Assembly: GCA_021789355.1 (NCBI GenBank)
Contig: JAJYJR010000250.1
Span: 1-8,018, forward strand
Direction of reading: 5' to 3'
DNA: 8,018 bases
Source of the DNA: Chloroflexota bacterium
GTDB lineage: Bacteria; Chloroflexota; Limnocylindria; Limnocylindrales; CSP1-4
Shown here piece by piece: positions 1,658 to 8,018 of this stretch (within the stretch, counting starts at the first letter, position 1; each line of letters begins with the position of its first letter). Made by a program: the position numbers and the translations under genes. The notes under the pieces are model-generated. The model was not told where the DNA came from, did not search any database, and was given only the letters and a program-made list of their open reading frames with translations.

Positions 1658-2689
1658 ATGCGGACCCTGCCGGTCGAACAGGCGGTCGGACTGCGCCTGG
1701 CCTGCGACGTGACCGGGATCACCGCGCACCAGGTGCGCGCGATCCTCACGAAGGGCATGCGCATCGAGCCGGGGCACGTGGCCATGCTCCGCGACGCCGG
1801 CCACGATGTCGTCTACGTGCGGGACGACGACGAACCCGACAGCGCGGCGGAGCTGGTGTCCGAGGATGAGGCCGCGCTGGAACTTGCCCGCGCCCTGTCC
1901 GGGACCGGGCTGGGGATCCAGCCGGGCGGGTCTGGCCGGGCCTTCCTGATCGCCCGGGCAGATGGCCTGGTGCGGATCCGGAAGGACACGTGCGCGCGGC
2001 TGAACGACTCCGAGGTGGCGCTGGTCATGACCCTGCCGCAGCACAGCGTCGGGCGGGCGGGCCGACTCGTCGCGGCGGTGGACCTCGTCCCGCTGCAGGT
2101 CCCGGCCACCGGGCTGGCGGAGCTGGTCGCGGGCCTGGCGCAGGACGGGCCTGCGATCGAGGTTCGGCCGTTCGCGCTGCGGCGCGTCGGCCTGGTGATC
2201 ACCGGCTCCGAGGTGTACGAGGGACGGGTGGCGGACCTCGTTGCCCCGGTCGTGCGGGCCACGGTGGCTCGGTACGGCGGCGAGGTCGGCGACGTCCAGG
2301 TGGTGCCGGACGACGAGGCTCGCATCGCGGCGGTCATCCTGGGGCTGGTGACGACACACGACATCGTGGTGGTGACCGGCGGGATGAGCATCGACCCCAC
2401 CGACCGCACCCCCTCGGCGATCCGGCGCGTCGCCGATCGCGTGGTCAAGTACGGGCTCCCGGTCCTGCCCACCGCCATGAGCATGGTCGCCTATCGCGGC
2501 GCGGTCCCCATCCTGGGCATCTCGTCAGGGATCATCCACTACCCCGACGGGAACGTCCTCGAGCGGCTGCTGCCGCTGGCCATGTGCGGCGAGCCGATCA
2601 CCCGCGCGGAGCTCGTGGCGGCCGGCGTCGGCGGCCTGGGCGCCGCGTTCGTGGCCGATGTCGAACGACGGATGGGGCCTCAGGCCTAG
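1658..2689 (+). CDS. Molybdopterin-binding protein (MoCF_biosynth / MoeA-like domain)
   Basis: A 343-residue protein. The N-terminal part (about 1-60) has the PVEQAVGLRLACDVTGI and ILTKGMRI...GHVAMLRDAGHDVVYV pattern of stand-alone molybdopterin-binding proteins related to MoeA. The C-terminal MoCF domain (about 175-305) has VGLVITGSEVYEGRV (177-191), an aspartate-rich VVPDD turn (216-220) and the characteristic TGGMSIDPTDRTP (240-252). It is expected to bind molybdopterin or Mo-cofactor in the cytoplasm, but the exact reaction is not known for this branch. It lacks the full four-domain MoeA layout. ATG 1658 is chosen because GAGGAGGAG lies at 1641-1649, 8 bases upstream, and homology starts there; an upstream in-frame ATG at 1559 would add 33 residues of low-quality sequence. 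No other Mo-related gene is in the window, so it may be an independent unit. Confidence 0.87.
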   Translation: MRTLPVEQAVGLRLACDVTGITAHQVRAILTKGMRIEPGHVAMLRDAGHDVVYVRDDDEPDSAAELVSEDEAALELARALSGTGLGIQPGGSGRAFLIARADGLVRIRKDTCARLNDSEVALVMTLPQHSVGRAGRLVAAVDLVPLQVPATGLAELVAGLAQDGPAIEVRPFALRRVGLVITGSEVYEGRVADLVAPVVRATVARYGGEVGDVQVVPDDEARIAAVILGLVTTHDIVVVTGGMSIDPTDRTPSAIRRVADRVVKYGLPVLPTAMSMVAYRGAVPILGISSGIIHYPDGNVLERLLPLAMCGEPITRAELVAAGVGGLGAAFVADVERRMGPQA

Positions 2690-2961
2690 CGTCGTCTCCC
2701 AGCCTGCCCTGCCAGGCCTCCCGTCGACGCATCCACAGGCAGATCCGGCCGGGTGGCGGGGCACGGCGGGCAGCGTAGGAGTGGGGTCGGCGGGCACGTA
2801 CCGGCGATCCGGCATGACCTGATGGTCCGGGGCAGCGAACGGCCGGAGGAGTTCCCCTACTCCTCCAGCCACCACTCGGACGAGGCAGCGAGGCCCCCGT
2901 CCGCGGTGGCATGCTACCGGACTGACCGTCGACCACCACCTGGTCGCCGCAGGCCCGCCGT
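2690..2961. other. Non-coding gap between convergent genes; candidate left boundary of the mobile element
   Basis: This 272-base stretch separates the stop of the molybdopterin-binding gene from the stop of the recombinase gene, which converge on it. I see no convincing gene: the open frames here are short, lack ribosome binding sites and give Arg/Pro/Gly-rich translations. It contains a strong hairpin at 2845-2866 and a 9-base direct repeat (CGGCGGGCA at 2764-2772 and 2788-2796) that may be chance at this GC content. As the first non-coding region beyond the recombinase gene, it is the likeliest place in the window for an attachment site. No second att copy is available here to prove it. Confidence 0.4.
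2845..2866. terminator. Strong hairpin between convergent genes (possible bidirectional terminator or att-site element)
   Basis: Perfect 8-base arms GGAGGAGT (2845-2852) and ACTCCTCC (2859-2866) flank a 6-base loop TCCCCT. There is no U-tract on either side, so it is not a textbook intrinsic terminator; in GC-rich genomes such U-less hairpins between convergent genes can still end transcription. It could instead be a symmetric element of a recombinase attachment site. The structure is seen directly; the function is inference. Confidence 0.4.
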
Positions 2962-4623
2962 TCACCTCGGCCGCGCGTTCTGAATGCCAATCCGCGGCAG
3001 CGTCGGCGGGGCCGCCTGATAGGCGCCGGCCTCGACGAGCGCGGCGAACTCGGTCCGGGGCTGCAGCGCGGTGACGAACGGTCCCCACAGCTCGACCCGC
3101 TCGAAGACCGCCGTCATGAGGTCGCGGCGCGCGGCCTGCAGCTCGGCCGAGGTGTCCTCGGGGTCGCCCCACAGGTCGCCGACGTGGCGGAGCAGCTCGG
3201 CGGCGGCCTCCAGGTCCACCATCTGCTGCGCGACCGAGGCAGGCGCATCGCGAAGCTCCGCGATGCGGTCTCGCGTTTCGCGCCGGAGACGGTCCAGATC
3301 GAGGGCGCTCACGGTGCTGTCGCCATCGGCGAAGGCGGCCGCCTTGGAGCGCAACTCGGCCTCGAGCCGCGCGATCTCCAGGTGGCGCTGGTCCTCGCGC
3401 TGCCCTGCCTCAGCTTCGGAGGCCAGGCGCGCGATGACCGCCTGTCGGGTCGTGTCGTCGAGTCGAAACGCGTGCCAGAAGTCTGCCAGGTGGCGCAGGT
3501 ACTCGACCTCCGCGTAGCTCTGGCGCTCTGGCTCGCAGAACGCGTGTTGGCCCGGGTGGTGGTAGCGCGGATGCGGCACCGTGCCCCCGTACTGTGCCGT
3601 CGCCTTCATCCCGCAGCGCCACCAGGCGAGACCGGCGAGGACATAGATGAAGCGCCGATGGTGGCTGGCGAGGACCGCCCGGCTGCGCCCGCGGAGACCC
3701 TCGGCGAGCTTGGCGTCGATGCGCGCGGCGAGCTCCGGCGCGAATAGCGGCTCGATGGATCCGGTCACCCCGTCGAGGTACCCGCGCTTCCGCGCTCTGC
3801 GCGAGACGTGGTAGCCGAGCACACCGCGGTGCAGCGGCAGCGTCAGCAGGTCGTAGATCGCCTGCTTGGTCCAGTGCTTGCCGCGACGCGTCTCGTAGCC
3901 CTGCGCGGTGGCCCACGCGGCCACCGTGGCACAGGTCTCGCCGGATCCCAGGAAGCGCGTCCCGATGGCCCGCACGATGGGAGCCTCGCTCGCGTGGTGG
4001 GCGAGGGGGAGGTTGTACTTGTCAGGGCGGCGCCAGCCGAAGGGGGCAACCCCGGCCTGGCTGACCACCTTGAGCGCCGCATCATCGCCGCGCACGATGA
4101 ACCCCTCGATGCCGTCGGCGACGCGGCGGCTGAGCTTGTCGACGTACTCCTGGTTCTCCGCGTGCTTGCGGTTCTTGGCCCCCCGTGTCTTCGCGTTCGA
4201 GGCGATGAGGACATCGTCGTCCTCGAGGTACACGACGAAGCAGCCGGCACGATGCAGCTCTTCCTCGATCTGCAGGGCACCAAGGACGTTGCGTGCATAG
4301 CGCGACGCGTCATAGAAGATGAGGACGCGAATCCGGCCGGCACGGGCTGCCTCGAGCTGTTCGCGCGTCTCGCGCGCGCTGGCCATATCCTTGCCGGTCT
4401 CGGTGCGCTCCCAGGCCAGGCCAGTGTCGAGCAGGCCATGGGACCGGCCGAAAGAACGGATGCGGCGTGCCTGCAGGTCAGTCGAGCCATTGCTGGTCTG
4501 ACGCTCGTCGCTGACGCGCACGGACATGGCGAACGGCAGACCCCGCAGGTCCTCCGGCCTGACGTCATACGGGGCGTTGGGATCGAGCTGCCAGGGATCG
4601 GTGGGAACGCCGCGGCGCTGCAT
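2962..4623 (-). CDS. Large serine recombinase (resolvase/invertase-type site-specific integrase)
   Basis: A 553-residue serine recombinase that would cut and rejoin DNA at attachment sites through a 5' phosphoserine link. The catalytic domain (about 30-180) has R36 and the nucleophile S38 in SVRVSDERQ, and the active-site arginines in YDASRYARN (R108, R111). The Recombinase domain (about 190-305) has GVAPFGWRRP and WTKQAIYDLLTLPLHRGVLGY. The zinc-ribbon region (about 325-370) is degenerate: only C337 and C363 of the usual four cysteines are visible. A helical, probably coiled-coil part follows (393-480). ATG 4623 has GAGG (4631-4634) 7 bases upstream, overlapping the stop of the preceding gene; an internal ATG at 4527 lacks an SD and would leave only 5 residues before the catalytic serine. 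The ~30-residue leader before the catalytic domain is unusual. It is the last gene of the leftward operon and probably mobilises it. Confidence 0.93.
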   Translation of the reverse strand: MQRRGVPTDPWQLDPNAPYDVRPEDLRGLPFAMSVRVSDERQTSNGSTDLQARRIRSFGRSHGLLDTGLAWERTETGKDMASARETREQLEAARAGRIRVLIFYDASRYARNVLGALQIEEELHRAGCFVVYLEDDDVLIASNAKTRGAKNRKHAENQEYVDKLSRRVADGIEGFIVRGDDAALKVVSQAGVAPFGWRRPDKYNLPLAHHASEAPIVRAIGTRFLGSGETCATVAAWATAQGYETRRGKHWTKQAIYDLLTLPLHRGVLGYHVSRRARKRGYLDGVTGSIEPLFAPELAARIDAKLAEGLRGRSRAVLASHHRRFIYVLAGLAWWRCGMKATAQYGGTVPHPRYHHPGQHAFCEPERQSYAEVEYLRHLADFWHAFRLDDTTRQAVIARLASEAEAGQREDQRHLEIARLEAELRSKAAAFADGDSTVSALDLDRLRRETRDRIAELRDAPASVAQQMVDLEAAAELLRHVGDLWGDPEDTSAELQAARRDLMTAVFERVELWGPFVTALQPRTEFAALVEAGAYQAAPPTLPRIGIQNARPR

Positions 4624-4632
4624 CGGAGCGCC

Positions 4633-4854
4633 TCACGCCGCCGGCCGGAGGGTTCCGGCCTCGGGAGCCAACGACGCGTCGGCGGGCAGACGCAGCCGGT
4701 AACGCACGAGGGCGGCCAGCGCGTCGATGAGCGGCGACTGGTCGCTGCTGGTGACGACATGGACGAAGGGGGTCCCCTCCTCCGCCCGGAGGTCGTCGTG
4801 GGCGATCCCGGAGACCGTTCCGAGGATCTGGGGATCGGGGCTGGATAGCGGCAT
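4633..4854 (-). CDS. Small hypothetical protein between J-domain gene and recombinase
   Basis: A 73-residue protein of no family I recognise. It has no cysteines or membrane segment. The middle (VSGIAHDDLRAEEGTPFVHV) looks like a small mixed alpha/beta fold, followed by a leucine-rich helix (PLIDALAALVRYRLRL) and an Ala/Pro tail. Start 4854 is preferred because GGAG (complement of 4863-4866) sits 8 bases upstream. The frame extends to an ATG at 4962, which would give 109 residues and lie only 3 bases after the J-domain stop, allowing translational coupling; but those extra 36 residues are Ser/Pro/Arg-rich and low-complexity. Its stop overlaps the ribosome binding site of the recombinase gene, 9 bases away, so it is probably translated just before it. 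A recombinase accessory role is possible but unproven. Confidence 0.5.
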   Translation of the reverse strand: MPLSSPDPQILGTVSGIAHDDLRAEEGTPFVHVVTSSDQSPLIDALAALVRYRLRLPADASLAPEAGTLRPAA

Positions 4855-4965
4855 GAGCGGGGCTCCGCGCTGCGGCAGGGACCGCCCGGTTCGCGAGCGG
4901 TGCGGGAGCGTCGACGGGGTTCGGCTGCTGTCAAGCGCGCTCGCGCCAGAATGCGGTGCCATCCG

Positions 4966-5493
4966 TCACCACCGCCGGGCAAGCCAGGTCCCCAGCCGGA
5001 GCGCTCCGACCAGGAGGGCACCCGCGGCTTCGGCCGGGGCATAGGGGTGGGCGTCGGGCACCGCGCGCACGTGCAGCCGCAGCACGAGGAACGCGGCGAG
5101 AAGTTCGAGCGGCGACCAGGCGCGGGACGATCCCAGGAGCGCGATCCCGTGCACCCCGGCGACGAGCAGCAGGCACCCGAGCCACTGGCCGGGGCCCGTC
5201 GTGACGAGCCAGGCCGCAGCCCGGGCCCGCACGCAGCGCTCCTGCGCCGGGCCGGTGGCCGGGCGGCCGGTCGGGCTCGCGCCGGACGCCGACCGCGGCG
5301 CCTGCCCAGGCGCCGCGGTCGCGTGGATACCGGCGATCCGGCGGAGCGCTGCATACGCGGCGTTGAGCTCGCGCATCCGAGCGGTCGAGCCGCCGTGGTC
5401 GGGATGGTGGCGCCAGGCGAGGCGCCGATACGCGGCGTGGACGGTCGCGGGATCCGCCCCGGGTGACACGCCGAGCACGCGCCAGGGGTCCAT
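4966..5493 (-). CDS. J-domain (DnaJ-like) protein with hydrophobic, membrane-anchoring C-terminus
   Basis: A 175-residue protein. Residues 3-52 form a complete J domain: WRVLGVSPGADPATVHAAYRRL, the basic helix II, the HPD motif (H30-P31-D32) that stimulates Hsp70 ATPase, and helix III with LNAAYAALR. A Gly/Ala/Pro-rich linker (about 57-90) follows, then two or three hydrophobic spans near 103-120, 127-143 and 153-171, so the J domain is expected to face the cytoplasm from the membrane. There is no zinc-finger or substrate-binding C-terminal domain, so it is a class III J protein likely to bring a DnaK-type chaperone to a specific site. ATG 5493 lies 6 bases after the stop of the microprotein gene with no strong SD, suggesting coupled translation. 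Its neighbours are an FtsH-like protease and a membrane microprotein. Confidence 0.85.
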   Translation of the reverse strand: MDPWRVLGVSPGADPATVHAAYRRLAWRHHPDHGGSTARMRELNAAYAALRRIAGIHATAAPGQAPRSASGASPTGRPATGPAQERCVRARAAAWLVTTGPGQWLGCLLLVAGVHGIALLGSSRAWSPLELLAAFLVLRLHVRAVPDAHPYAPAEAAGALLVGALRLGTWLARRW

Positions 5494-5499
5494 CGTGCG

Positions 5500-5652
5500 T
5501 CAGGCCCGGGCCGCGGGACCGGCCGGATCGAGCGCGCGCAGGAGCGTCCAGGCGATGCCGGCGAGGAGCCCGGCCACGAGCACGACGAGCAGGGCCGCGC
5601 CGCACAGGGCGAGCAGGGCCAGGCGGATCCCGATGCGCAGGAACGGGATCAT
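5500..5652 (-). CDS. 50-residue single-span membrane microprotein
   Basis: My reading of the complement of 5500-5652 gives a 50-residue frame that begins MIPFLRIGIRLALLALCGAA and ends RALDPAGPAARA. One long hydrophobic helix (about residues 10-37, Leu/Ala/Val/Ile-rich with one Cys at 17) follows a short basic N-terminus with two arginines, and a polar tail completes it. Its ATG (5652-5650) overlaps the stop of the protease gene (5651-5649) as ATGA, and its own stop is 6 bases before the J-domain start, exactly as expected for a coupled operon gene. It fills what would otherwise be the only sizeable hole between the protease and J-domain genes. The family is unknown. It could anchor or regulate the soluble FtsH-like protease at the membrane; that is inference. 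No strong SD is visible. Confidence 0.65.
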   Translation of the reverse strand: MIPFLRIGIRLALLALCGAALLVVLVAGLLAGIAWTLLRALDPAGPAARA

Positions 5653-7034
5653 GCCGGGCCCGTCACGCGGGCCGCGGCCAGCTGCGCGAGCCGCTCGCCG
5701 AGCGCCGCGCCGCTCAGGGTCTGGTCGGCGAGCAGCGTCTCGGCGAAGCTCAGCACGGCCTCGCGGCGGCGTTCGAGGATCGCCTCCGCCCGCGCCGTCT
5801 GGCGGTCCAGCTCGAGGCGCACCGCGGCCGCCCGTGCGTCGAGGAGCCGGGGGCCGGCCTCTCGGGTGAAGGCATCAGTGTTGAGGCCGCCCCAGGCGGC
5901 GTCGCTGCCACAGGCGAGGCGCGAGAGGAGCAGCTCGGTGGCCTGCTGCATGTCGCTGCCCCCACCCAGCGACCCTGAGCCCAGGACGAGGCGCTCGCCG
6001 ATCGCCCCGGCGAGGAGAACGGCCACCCGCGCCAGCAGCTCGTCGTCGGCGAGATCCGGGTGCGAGCCGTCGTCGGGCCCGAGCTCGGTGCGCCCACCGC
6101 GGTGGTCGCCCAGGGCGACCGCGCTGATCTCCCCCGGCCCGAGCAGCTCGAGAGCCACGACGGCATGGCTGGCCTCGTGGACCGCCTGGCGCCTGCGCTG
6201 GGCTGCCGTCAGGGCCGGCACTTCGTCGACCTCCCCGTGACGGCGCAGGGCCTCCTCCCAGTGGCGGGCCGTGAGCCCGCCGGTCACGCCGTCCGCCAAG
6301 GCCAGGGCGAGCCCGTCGTCGAGCGCCCCCAAGAGGTCCGCGCCGCTGCGCCCGCGGGTGAGCTCGGCCGCCCGCTCGAGATCGATCGGCTCGGCCACCC
6401 GGCGACGCGCGAGCAGATAGGCGAGCAGCTCGCGCCGCTCCTCACGCGTGGGCAGCTCCAGGCGCACGATCCGCCCAAAGCGCCCCGCACGCAGGAGCGA
6501 GCGATCGAGGTACGCGGGATCCGTGTTCGTGCTCGCGACATACAGCATGCGGCCTCCGTCGCGCAGCCCGTCGAGCGCCGAGAGGAGCGCATACAGGACG
6601 CTCCGCGAACGGCGGTCGTGGACCCGCGACCCGCGCTCCAGGGCCACCGCATCGATCTCGTCGATGTAGAGGACGGCGGGGACCGGGTGGGCCGCGAAGT
6701 GCCGGGCGAAGGCCGCCACTCGTCGCTCCGTGAGCTCCGCGGCGGTGCACTCGTAGTAGGGCACGGCGTCGCCCAGGAGCGCCGCGAGGATGCGCGCCAG
6801 GTTCGTCTTGCCGACCCCGGGCGGCCCGGTGAAGAGGACGCCGCGCACGATGCTGCCGCCCGCCGCGGTCACGGCGTCGGGGTCGCGCAGCATGGCCGCC
6901 AGGCTCGCCACCTCGCGCGTCGCGCGCGGCGAGCCGACATGGTCGGCGAGGGTGAGGCCGCGCACCGCCACCCGATGGCGGCGCAGCCAGCGCCGCACGT
7001 CGTGCGTGCCGGCCGATCGATGCCGGGCTGCCAT
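5649..7034 (-). CDS. Soluble FtsH-like AAA+ ATPase with M41 zinc-metallopeptidase domain
   Basis: A 461-residue ATP-dependent protease. The AAA module (about 25-265) has Walker A GPPGVGKT (70-77), Walker B VLYIDEID (121-128), sensor-1 N170 and the second-region-of-homology arginines in DRSLLRAGRFGR (R182, R185), then an FtsH-type lid with GRSGADL (228-234). The M41 peptidase part (about 276-455) has the zinc site HEASH (H286, E287, H290) and the distal aspartate in GGGSDMQQAT (D361), so catalysis looks intact. Unlike FtsH (about 600-700 residues) there is no N-terminal membrane region, and the aromatic FVG pore loop is not evident between Walker A and B. ATG 7034 is chosen because GGAGGA (complement of 7044-7049) lies 9 bases upstream; the frame runs on to 7262 but that part is not protein-like and would overlap the divergent HTH gene. 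It is the first gene of the leftward operon. Confidence 0.88.
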   Translation of the reverse strand: MAARHRSAGTHDVRRWLRRHRVAVRGLTLADHVGSPRATREVASLAAMLRDPDAVTAAGGSIVRGVLFTGPPGVGKTNLARILAALLGDAVPYYECTAAELTERRVAAFARHFAAHPVPAVLYIDEIDAVALERGSRVHDRRSRSVLYALLSALDGLRDGGRMLYVASTNTDPAYLDRSLLRAGRFGRIVRLELPTREERRELLAYLLARRRVAEPIDLERAAELTRGRSGADLLGALDDGLALALADGVTGGLTARHWEEALRRHGEVDEVPALTAAQRRRQAVHEASHAVVALELLGPGEISAVALGDHRGGRTELGPDDGSHPDLADDELLARVAVLLAGAIGERLVLGSGSLGGGSDMQQATELLLSRLACGSDAAWGGLNTDAFTREAGPRLLDARAAAVRLELDRQTARAEAILERRREAVLSFAETLLADQTLSGAALGERLAQLAAARVTGPA

Positions 7035-7248
7035 GCGGGCCGGTCCTCCGTGCGGGTCGACGATCTCCGTACGGGACGCCGGGACGGACCTCGGTGTCGA
7101 GGCCGTCGGTGCCCAGCGTTCCCAGGGTGCCCGAACGACGCAGCATTCGTGCGCGTATGGGCGGGTTCGCTTGACGGATGCGCCGCGGCGCCCACGCTCC
7201 TCGTGCCCGGCACCGCGCTCGGCGCCGGTGTTATTCGTGGAGCCGCCC
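7035..7248. promoter_or_regulatory. Divergent intergenic region, likely promoter/operator area for the protease operon and HTH gene
   Basis: These 214 bases separate the divergent starts of the FtsH-like gene (leftward) and HTH gene (rightward), so promoters for both should lie here. A TTGACG at 7171-7176 could be a rightward -35 box, but no good -10 follows at 17 bases. An inverted repeat CGTTC (7117-7121)/GAACG (7133-7137) with an 11-base spacer could be an operator for the HTH protein. The region is visibly less uniform in GC than the genes. None of these sites is more than suggestive. Confidence 0.35.
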
Positions 7249-7470
7249 GTGCCGCCTTCCACCCGCTATCGCACCATCGCGGAGATCGCCGCGGAGCTCG
7301 GCTACACGCGGCGCTGGGTGCTCCGCCAGGTGGAGCTCGGGCGCCTCGCCGCGATCGCGTTCGACGCGGGGCATCGCCGCTCCTACCGCATCCGGGAGGC
7401 CGACTTCGCGGCATTCCGCGCTCGCTACCTGCGCGACGCTCTCGAGCTGCCACGCCGCGATGAGGCCTGA
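7249..7470 (+). CDS. Excisionase/MerR-like helix-turn-helix DNA-binding protein
   Basis: A 73-residue protein of the HTH_17/excisionase kind. The fold YRTIAEIAAELGYTRRWVLRQ (7-27) is the helix-turn-helix, followed by the typical GRLAAIAF (31-38) strand and a basic HRRSYRIREADFAAFRARYL segment (42-61), matching the R-S-G-R-L-x-A...R-x-Y-R-I/V-x-x-x-D-h-x-x-F pattern. Such proteins act as recombination directionality factors or small repressors. Start GTG 7249 is chosen because GGAG (7239-7242) precedes it by 6 bases; GTG 7237 is an alternative without SD, and anything further upstream would read through the intergenic region. It is divergent from the protease operon that ends in the serine recombinase and converges with the RepA-like gene. 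Whether it directs excision or represses the operon cannot be decided here. Confidence 0.72.
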   Translation: MPPSTRYRTIAEIAAELGYTRRWVLRQVELGRLAAIAFDAGHRRSYRIREADFAAFRARYLRDALELPRRDEA

Positions 7471-7474
7471 CGCA

Positions 7475-7534
7475 GGCGCCACTCCAACCCAACCCGGTCC
7501 CCCCTAGGCGGCGCGGGCTTGGCTTGGAGTCGCC
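7475..7534. repeat. Imperfect inverted repeat spanning the stops of two convergent genes
   Basis: ACTCCAA (7481-7487) pairs perfectly with TTGGAGT (7524-7530), and flanking GGCG (7475-7478) pairs with CGCC (7531-7534) if CC at 7479-7480 bulges out. The loop is 36 bases and contains the stop of the RepA-like gene; the right arm is inside its coding sequence. It may help terminate the convergent transcripts, but a T-run is absent and chance is possible. Confidence 0.25.
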
Positions 7535-8018
7535 GGCCGGTACAGGGGCCGGTTCGCGGGACCCGCCTTGACCAGGCGACCCTCCCGCACGTGCGCCGCG
7601 AGAGCCTGCCGGGCCGTCTCGTCGCTCACCCCGCGCAGGGCGGCGAGCTCCGATGCGCTGAGCCCGCCCGTCGGGTCGGCGGCCACCCGGGCGGCGGCGA
7701 GGGCCACCACCGCCTCGGCGTCGATCCCGCCCGGGTAGCGGGGCGCGGCCGGCAGCGGGATGGGCCCCGCGTGCAGCTCGAAGCTGGCGCTGGCGCCGTC
7801 GAAGACCAGGCGCAGCGACTCCGACTCGGCGTCGCGCATCTCGGTGTCGAGGCGCAGGTGATCGCCCTGCCGGGAGAGGACCAGATTGGCGTCGGTGCTG
7901 CTGATGATGGCGCCGGAACCGCGCGCGGCGTTGCCGACCGCCCCGGCCTCGGCCCCGTGCTTGACCACGTGGTGCACCACCAGCACGGCGCACCCCAGGC
8001 CGGTCAGCGCCTGCAGGG
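7504..8018 (-). CDS. RepA-like AAA ATPase (AAA_25, RecA-type NTPase), 3' part; 5' end outside window
   Basis: The frame is open to the right edge (about 170 residues visible, ending at TAG 7506-7504). The first part, LQALTGLGCAVLVVHHVVKHG, followed by GAVGNAARGSGAIISSTDAN, is the Walker B strand, HH-x-x-K and ARGS-SAL/D-A-x-L segment of RepA/AAA_25 proteins, hexameric RecA-fold ATPases of plasmids, phages and integrative elements. A beta-rich stretch follows (LRLDTEMRDAESESLRLVFDG), then a C-terminal winged-helix-like domain with LSASELAALRGVSDETARQAL and VREGRLVKAG. Walker A lies outside the window. The likely role is DNA handling or replication of the element. A GTG at 7986 exists but is inside the ATPase core and is not a believable start. 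It converges with the HTH gene, 33 bases apart. Confidence 0.8.
   Translation of the reverse strand, partial: LQALTGLGCAVLVVHHVVKHGAEAGAVGNAARGSGAIISSTDANLVLSRQGDHLRLDTEMRDAESESLRLVFDGASASFELHAGPIPLPAAPRYPGGIDAEAVVALAAARVAADPTGGLSASELAALRGVSDETARQALAAHVREGRLVKAGPANRPLYRPATPSQARAA

Follow-up and report, generated by a model that had tools for sequence, protein, structure and literature searches.

Canonical FtsH and the i-AAA and m-AAA proteases (TIGR01241, PF01434) carry an AAA+ domain followed by an M41 protease domain, with Walker motifs, two conserved arginines and an HExxH motif, and gripping and pulling of the substrate by pore loops is generally regarded as a requirement of AAA+ proteases. 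The FVG pore loops of FtsH are described as highly conserved in sections of one report (PMC10850787), and parts of another assign pore loop 1 of the i-AAA proteases a role in substrate unfolding and translocation (PMC12067869). FtsH works together with membrane partners, namely the single-span proteins HflK and HflC and the peptide MgtR, as stated in portions of two papers (PMC12067869, PMC6813294); according to a portion of the latter, MgtR, a membrane peptide of 30 aa, promotes the degradation of MgtC by FtsH (PMC6813294). Chaperones deliver substrates as well. In excerpts of one study DnaK and DnaJ target sigma32 to FtsH, and the phage-carried J protein Rki acts on this DnaK-sigma32-FtsH axis (PMC3486835). 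Finally, FtsH xenologs are known from the mobile tLST islands, where the enzyme is bound to the membrane and accompanied by sHsp20, ClpG/K, YfdX and HdeD, as given in sections of a further report (PMC8290217).

The window analysed here is an entire contig of 8018 bases with 73% GC; a protein database gives the same size for the longest contig of the window's own J and 50-aa proteins. On its minus strand, a run of five genes extends from position 7034 to 2962. According to the ORF list and Pfam, it encodes an AAA+-M41 metalloprotease of 461 aa (5649..7034), a 50-aa single-span membrane protein (5500..5652), a J-domain protein of 175 aa (4966..5493), an ORF of 109 codons that an inner ATG would shorten (4633..4962) and, last, a large serine recombinase of 553 aa (2962..4623). 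The genes are spaced by −4, 6, 3 and 9 bases, and the whole run may form one transcript. The initial annotation had described the first three genes (7034..5649, 5652..5500 and 5493..4966) as a cassette of an FtsH-like enzyme without its own anchor, a separate single-span protein of 50 residues and a J-domain protein with a membrane C-terminus, carried beside a serine recombinase, and this description holds in all of these points. Its gap of 6 bases between the 50-aa gene and the J gene was likewise found, but the protease stop and the start of the 50-aa gene overlap by 4 bases instead of 3 (ATGA at 5649..5652 on the minus strand, TCAT on the plus strand). Neither the extension of the run into the recombinase via the 109-codon ORF nor the loss of pore loop 1 was part of that annotation. 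GC3 of the protease, 50-aa and J genes ranges from 0.89 to 0.94. The 109-codon ORF has a GC3 of 0.85; it matched no family in four libraries and could be an element factor.

The protease matched the Pfam families AAA (4.4e-22) and Peptidase_M41 (7.2e-12), with Walker A at residues 70-77 (6827-6804) and the motif HEASH at residues 286-290 (6179-6165). No hydrophobic segment was found ahead of Walker A. The one hydrophobic stretch, at about residues 333-351, falls within the M41 domain; since it aligns to a part of the protease domain in FtsH itself, it is read as a buried helix. A canonical FtsH with a mis-called start was considered and rejected, because the 76 residues added by a GTG start at 7262 contain no hydrophobic segment and because GGAGG is located upstream of the ATG at 7034. 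In contrast to canonical FtsH, the enzyme lacks the two N-terminal membrane segments with their periplasmic domain as well as the aromatic-X-Gly pore loop 1. It scored 165.8 bits against the NCBIfam equivalog of FtsH, for which the cut-off is 600. Its domain order and profile are FtsH-like, but since the membrane domain, the loop and this score are all wanting, we did not file it as FtsH. Across 16 aligned rows the Walker B DE, arginines 182 and 185, which we take to be the arginine-finger positions, both histidines and the glutamate of HExxH, and aspartate 361 are invariant. A pseudo-protease was rejected on the sequence of HExxH, aspartate 361, Walker B DE and the Walker A lysine, the last being almost invariant.

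A database search with the protease, in which the best 7994 candidates by shared words were scored, gave 104 proteins among the matches listed. Seventeen of them were assigned to the family of the window's protein. Eleven of these, P0001-P0011, are close at 66-98% identity and include two fragments; the other six, P0012-P0017, are distant at 36-43% identity in the alignment and include one fragment. The remaining listed matches are FtsH, Cdc48-like and other AAA proteins. The limits of this family within the match list, as well as those of the J family described below, are our own reading. Full-length family members comprise 459-521 aa, about 460 being typical. In an unrooted tree of 52 of the 75 gathered sequences, some of which, the window's included, are of unusual composition, the window's protein and 14 full-length relatives fell on one side of a branch supported at 100/99, which separates them both from FtsH with its membrane anchor and from another AAA-M41 group, one of 12 rows. 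The tree left out the family fragments P0010, P0011 and P0017, three Cdc48-like proteins together with one fragment (P0021, P0024, P0038, P0098), and 16 FtsH-type rows from P0042-P0058. Walker A and HExxH were detected in all 15 full-length family rows and a hydrophobic segment before Walker A in none of these 15, whereas each of the FtsH-type rows outside these two groups carries one or two such segments. Among the near rows P0005, 73% identical to the window's protease, branches first, with weak support (85/40). The distant P0012 (43-44% identical) reads GPVGCGKT at Walker A and VVVFVDELS at Walker B.

The most surprising part of the locus is the missing pore loop. None of the 15 full-length family rows contains an aromatic-X-Gly motif at this place, whereas of the 20 anchored FtsH-type rows aligned with them 18 do (FVG, YAG or YVG) and the other two have LVG; two of these 20 rows, P0039 and P0040, are without HExxH. 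Profile-profile alignment (probability 100%) placed a gap of 7 residues exactly at MFVGVGA with the flanks staying aligned, so that the loop of ~7 residues would be missing at the junction of residues 103/104 (6723..6728, minus strand). The MAFFT alignment distributes the gap otherwise, still with no aromatic-X-Gly. As pore loop 1 is missing and the ATPase and zinc motifs are kept, ATP binding and peptide cleavage are expected of the enzyme, whereas the usual threading of substrates may be lost.

All three protein families were found elsewhere in metagenomes. A motif scan of GTDB r220 revealed no member of the protease group, the scan using a single motif that P0009 and P0012 would escape. It returned 19 loci, 13 of which carry a one-frame HExxH protein with membrane segments; the six outside that filter belong to three Poseidoniales, a haloarchaeon, a cyanobacterium and an unclassified bacterium. 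No close member was present in 396 Actinomycetota genomes and 399 genomes of the same class as L001 (overlapping draws, best four candidates per genome), nor in 17 genomes of a further phylum, searched without a positive control. Of the seven top matches in the two draws, the two opened, L071 and L070, are FtsH with an N-terminal membrane part, L070 being judged from its ORF list. Viral contigs were queried with the protease and the recombinase, with two protease alignments and with one alignment each of the J and 50-aa families, and loci were obtained only with the J query (50) and the wide protease alignment (3). The 50 J loci (L020-L069) match in the J-domain region and contain no protease relative by tblastn; the three loci of the wide alignment match in AAA parts only.

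M41 enzymes without the FtsH membrane pair are not unique to this locus on mobile DNA. The second AAA-M41 group, supported at 100/100, includes six rows from alphaproteobacterial plasmid records, among them Rhizobium tumorigenes (L077) and Bosea (L082), and likewise lacks the paired FtsH segments; a marginal hydrophobic stretch precedes the AAA domain in L078 and P0096, and none is found in the other 10 rows. Members of this group differ from the window's protease in their size of 500-790 aa, in their mostly long N-terminal regions and in a W-containing segment at the place of the pore loop. Six plasmid loci (L077-L082) were opened of the 25 rows among the matches listed (935 records matched). 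Metallophosphoesterase genes are located near the AAA-M41 gene in five of the six (not annotated in L078). Within ~6 kb, no J or 50-aa relative was recognisable at any of the six loci, with the 50-aa queries weakened by the BLAST low-complexity filter (six of eight found the window itself). The initial annotation had pictured the cassette as an FtsH split into parts. The putative anchor is indeed separate, but this picture is too simple, because pore loop 1 has been lost as well as the anchor and because no such partners were recognisable at the plasmid AAA-M41 loci opened.

The 50-aa protein has arginine residues at positions 6 and 10 and a single strong hydrophobic span. Its family has eight listed members, the window's included, every one exactly 50 aa long, and the relatives are 74-82% identical; the fixed size and the conservation argue for a real gene. 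In build it resembles the FtsH membrane partners MgtR and HflK/HflC, being short or single-span, and it differs from them in that its putative partner protease has no membrane span of its own. The J protein matched Pfam DnaJ (3.4e-9; 37.1 bits at a cut-off of 27.8), with the J domain at residues 2-51 and HPD at residues 30-32 (5406-5398). A hydrophobic hairpin follows at about residues 105-145 and a third, weaker segment at about 156-172; at a loose threshold three hydrophobic segments were predicted, the first being the strongest. The 13 listed members of its family, the window's included, share this build of an N-terminal J domain, a variable linker, the hairpin and a third weaker segment. 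All 13 have the three hydrophobic segments and 12 have HPD, P0107 carrying NPD instead. A J domain with HPD is also found in DjlA, which is membrane-anchored, and in Rki; in contrast to these, the J protein of the window has its J domain at the N-terminus and a hairpin at the C-terminus, adjoins a protease and matches Pfam in the J domain only. In P0106, 107 of the first 110 residues match P0107 and the last 75 are identical to the window's J protein; it is either a recombinant allele or a chimeric assembly.

Whether the three genes travel together was evaluated from the longest contigs listed for each protein hit, matched by exact size in bases and by source. Three of the seven other 50-aa proteins share contig size (2252, 3855 and 1241 bases) and source with a J protein, and one of the 11 close proteases, P0005, shares a contig of 12,136 bases with a J protein 43-44% identical to the window's, both from JGI. 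None of the seven shares a contig with a protease, and judged by matching contig size the full triple was seen only in the window. Four control comparisons with non-family J proteins and other FtsH-type hits gave no shared contig; they comprised 69 values, one of them duplicated, for 87 listed non-family proteins and 27 values for 28 J proteins, one of which is listed with no contig size. The contigs of 10 of the 11 close proteases, seven of which exceed 5 kb (28,326, 21,996, 21,312, 13,229, 9,004, 7,429 and 5,781 bases), are not in the J list, which contains only cluster representatives at 90%. Since four of the J clusters comprise two or more sequences, the J protein of nearer relatives could be hidden inside a cluster. 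For P0008 (28,326 bases) and P0009 (21,312 bases), whose proteases are 66-67% identical to the window's, such hiding is unlikely, and the J gene is therefore missing there, disrupted, strongly divergent or located outside the contig. The partnership of the J protein with the 50-aa protein, and that of protease and J protein in P0005, are thus supported, though incompletely. The initial annotation had asked for recurrence and had named regular occurrence of the protease without the membrane genes, or of the triple in this strain alone, as signs of a chance neighbourhood. The results point both ways: the genes recur in pairs, on three contigs and on one, and P0008, P0009 and a triple seen only here speak for the other side. 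Taken together, the FtsH variant of this locus is genuine, out of the ordinary and found repeatedly; its membrane partners are likely, and it appears to be carried by an integrative element.

With the anchor separate, the loop gone and a membrane J protein adjacent, the simplest model would be a membrane-held protease that takes chains loosened by DnaK. According to this model, the recombinase-side operon of an integrative element would encode a proteolytic module made of an FtsH-derived enzyme and two small membrane proteins. The 50-aa span, the J hairpin or both would tether the enzyme to the membrane's inner face, and the J domain would recruit host DnaK (Hsp70) with its clients. DnaK would then supply the unfolding that a protease without pore loop 1 cannot perform as usual, and the zinc site would cut the delivered chain. 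We give this reading, in which a mobile protease is assisted by DnaK and tethered to the membrane by small proteins encoded apart from it, a probability of roughly 40%; physical association, membrane tethering, DnaK delivery and substrates are those parts of it which we infer. It is supported by the coherent 15-row group, the kept ATPase and zinc motifs, the lost loop, the conserved J motif, the recurrence of the families and the contig sizes shared in pairs, and it has precedents in the delivery of sigma32 and in MgtR. Counting against it are the 10 protease contigs not in the J list, the finding that no other 50-aa protein shares a contig size with a protease, the NPD of P0107, the different placing of the gap by MAFFT and the plasmid AAA-M41 enzymes without recognisable partners. 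Doubtful is the stronger form, in which an Hsp70-fed AAA protease would be spread by integrative elements, with anchoring ceded to the 50-aa span and unfolding and feeding to the J-recruited Hsp70. A conserved group with the ATPase and protease motifs kept, pore loop 1 gone and a J gene adjacent would provide a natural test of whether Hsp70 directly feeds a compartment protease and of the purpose of the ATPase once threading is lost, and it would add a mobile module that reshapes the turnover of host membrane proteins.

The layout of the window would fit one end of an integrative element with the cassette in the recombinase-side run. Both recombinase domains, PF00239 (Resolvase) and PF07508 (Recombinase), scored above their cut-offs, and five phage records match the recombinase at 24% identity, with no match in plasmid records; a search of the plasmid collection with the DNA of 2600-8018 likewise found no relative. 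Divergent from the cassette, an HTH_17 excisionase-like protein (1.4e-7) is encoded on the plus strand (7237..7470, GTG start assumed), followed on the minus strand by the C-terminal portion of a protein truncated where the contig stops (7504..7986, from the ORF list), which weakly resembles phage replication proteins (best E 0.008). No tRNA was found in the window, Rfam gave nothing above the gathering score, and near the recombinase end no direct repeat was detected within 2600-3050, the contig holding one end of the element. FtsH turns over lambda CII, and in a comparable manner the protease could degrade a regulator of the element or its host, timing excision or maintenance under common control with the recombinase. 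The five co-directional, closely spaced genes ending in the recombinase and the divergent excisionase-like gene are consistent with such a function. It leaves the two membrane proteins unexplained, however, and a position on the integrase side is a common place for unrelated cargo genes, and we consider element control unlikely.

Equally unlikely is that the genes are stress-tolerance cargo, an extra membrane proteostasis set for heat or membrane stress comparable to the FtsH copy on the tLST island. That island is mobile DNA carrying an FtsH relative, and J proteins are chaperone partners; but neither the tLST partner genes nor its core dna-hsp20-clpG was present among the window proteins scanned, and the membrane-bound tLST enzyme differs from the enzyme described here, which has no N-terminal membrane segment.

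A role in defence or counter-defence, with the protease degrading membrane proteins of phages or competitors, appears more improbable still. Carriage on a mobile element and partial matches to the AAA protein IetA of the anti-phage system IetAS (63.6 bits; 59.6 of 510 bits) would be in line with it. These matches cover the AAA part only, however, the other five scanned proteins, J and 50-aa proteins included, match no PADLOC family, the partner protease of IetA included, and a motif scan of IMG/VR found no member of the protease group. As there was no whole-protein match to a defence family and only AAA-domain matches, the best to IetA, the initial annotation was right not to name a defence system. 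The locus is not a recognised defence or stress system, and no paper on this gene set was found among the titles and abstract starts that searches of an open-licence library listed. What is new here, as far as can be read from the genes, is a protease group of the FtsH kind without pore loop 1 or N-terminal anchor, in the window beside a putative membrane J protein.

The poorest of the explanations, an FtsH-derived enzyme that, here and in some related strains, has two membrane genes of no related function as neighbours by chance, would agree with the single full triple and with P0008 and P0009, on whose long contigs no J protein is listed, but is rendered very improbable by the ATGA coupling and by the shared contigs of 50-aa and J proteins (three) and of protease and J protein (one).

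On the far side of the recombinase, host-type genes occupy positions 9-2689 of the plus strand, namely an ArsR-like C-terminus, so assigned by eye, and genes for an ArsP permease and an ArsE-type thioredoxin, followed by one for a molybdopterin-binding protein. Among 119 sampled Actinomycetota genomes, no counterpart of this last protein exceeds 37% identity over almost the entire length, and a Paenibacillus plasmid record carries a copy that is 37% identical.
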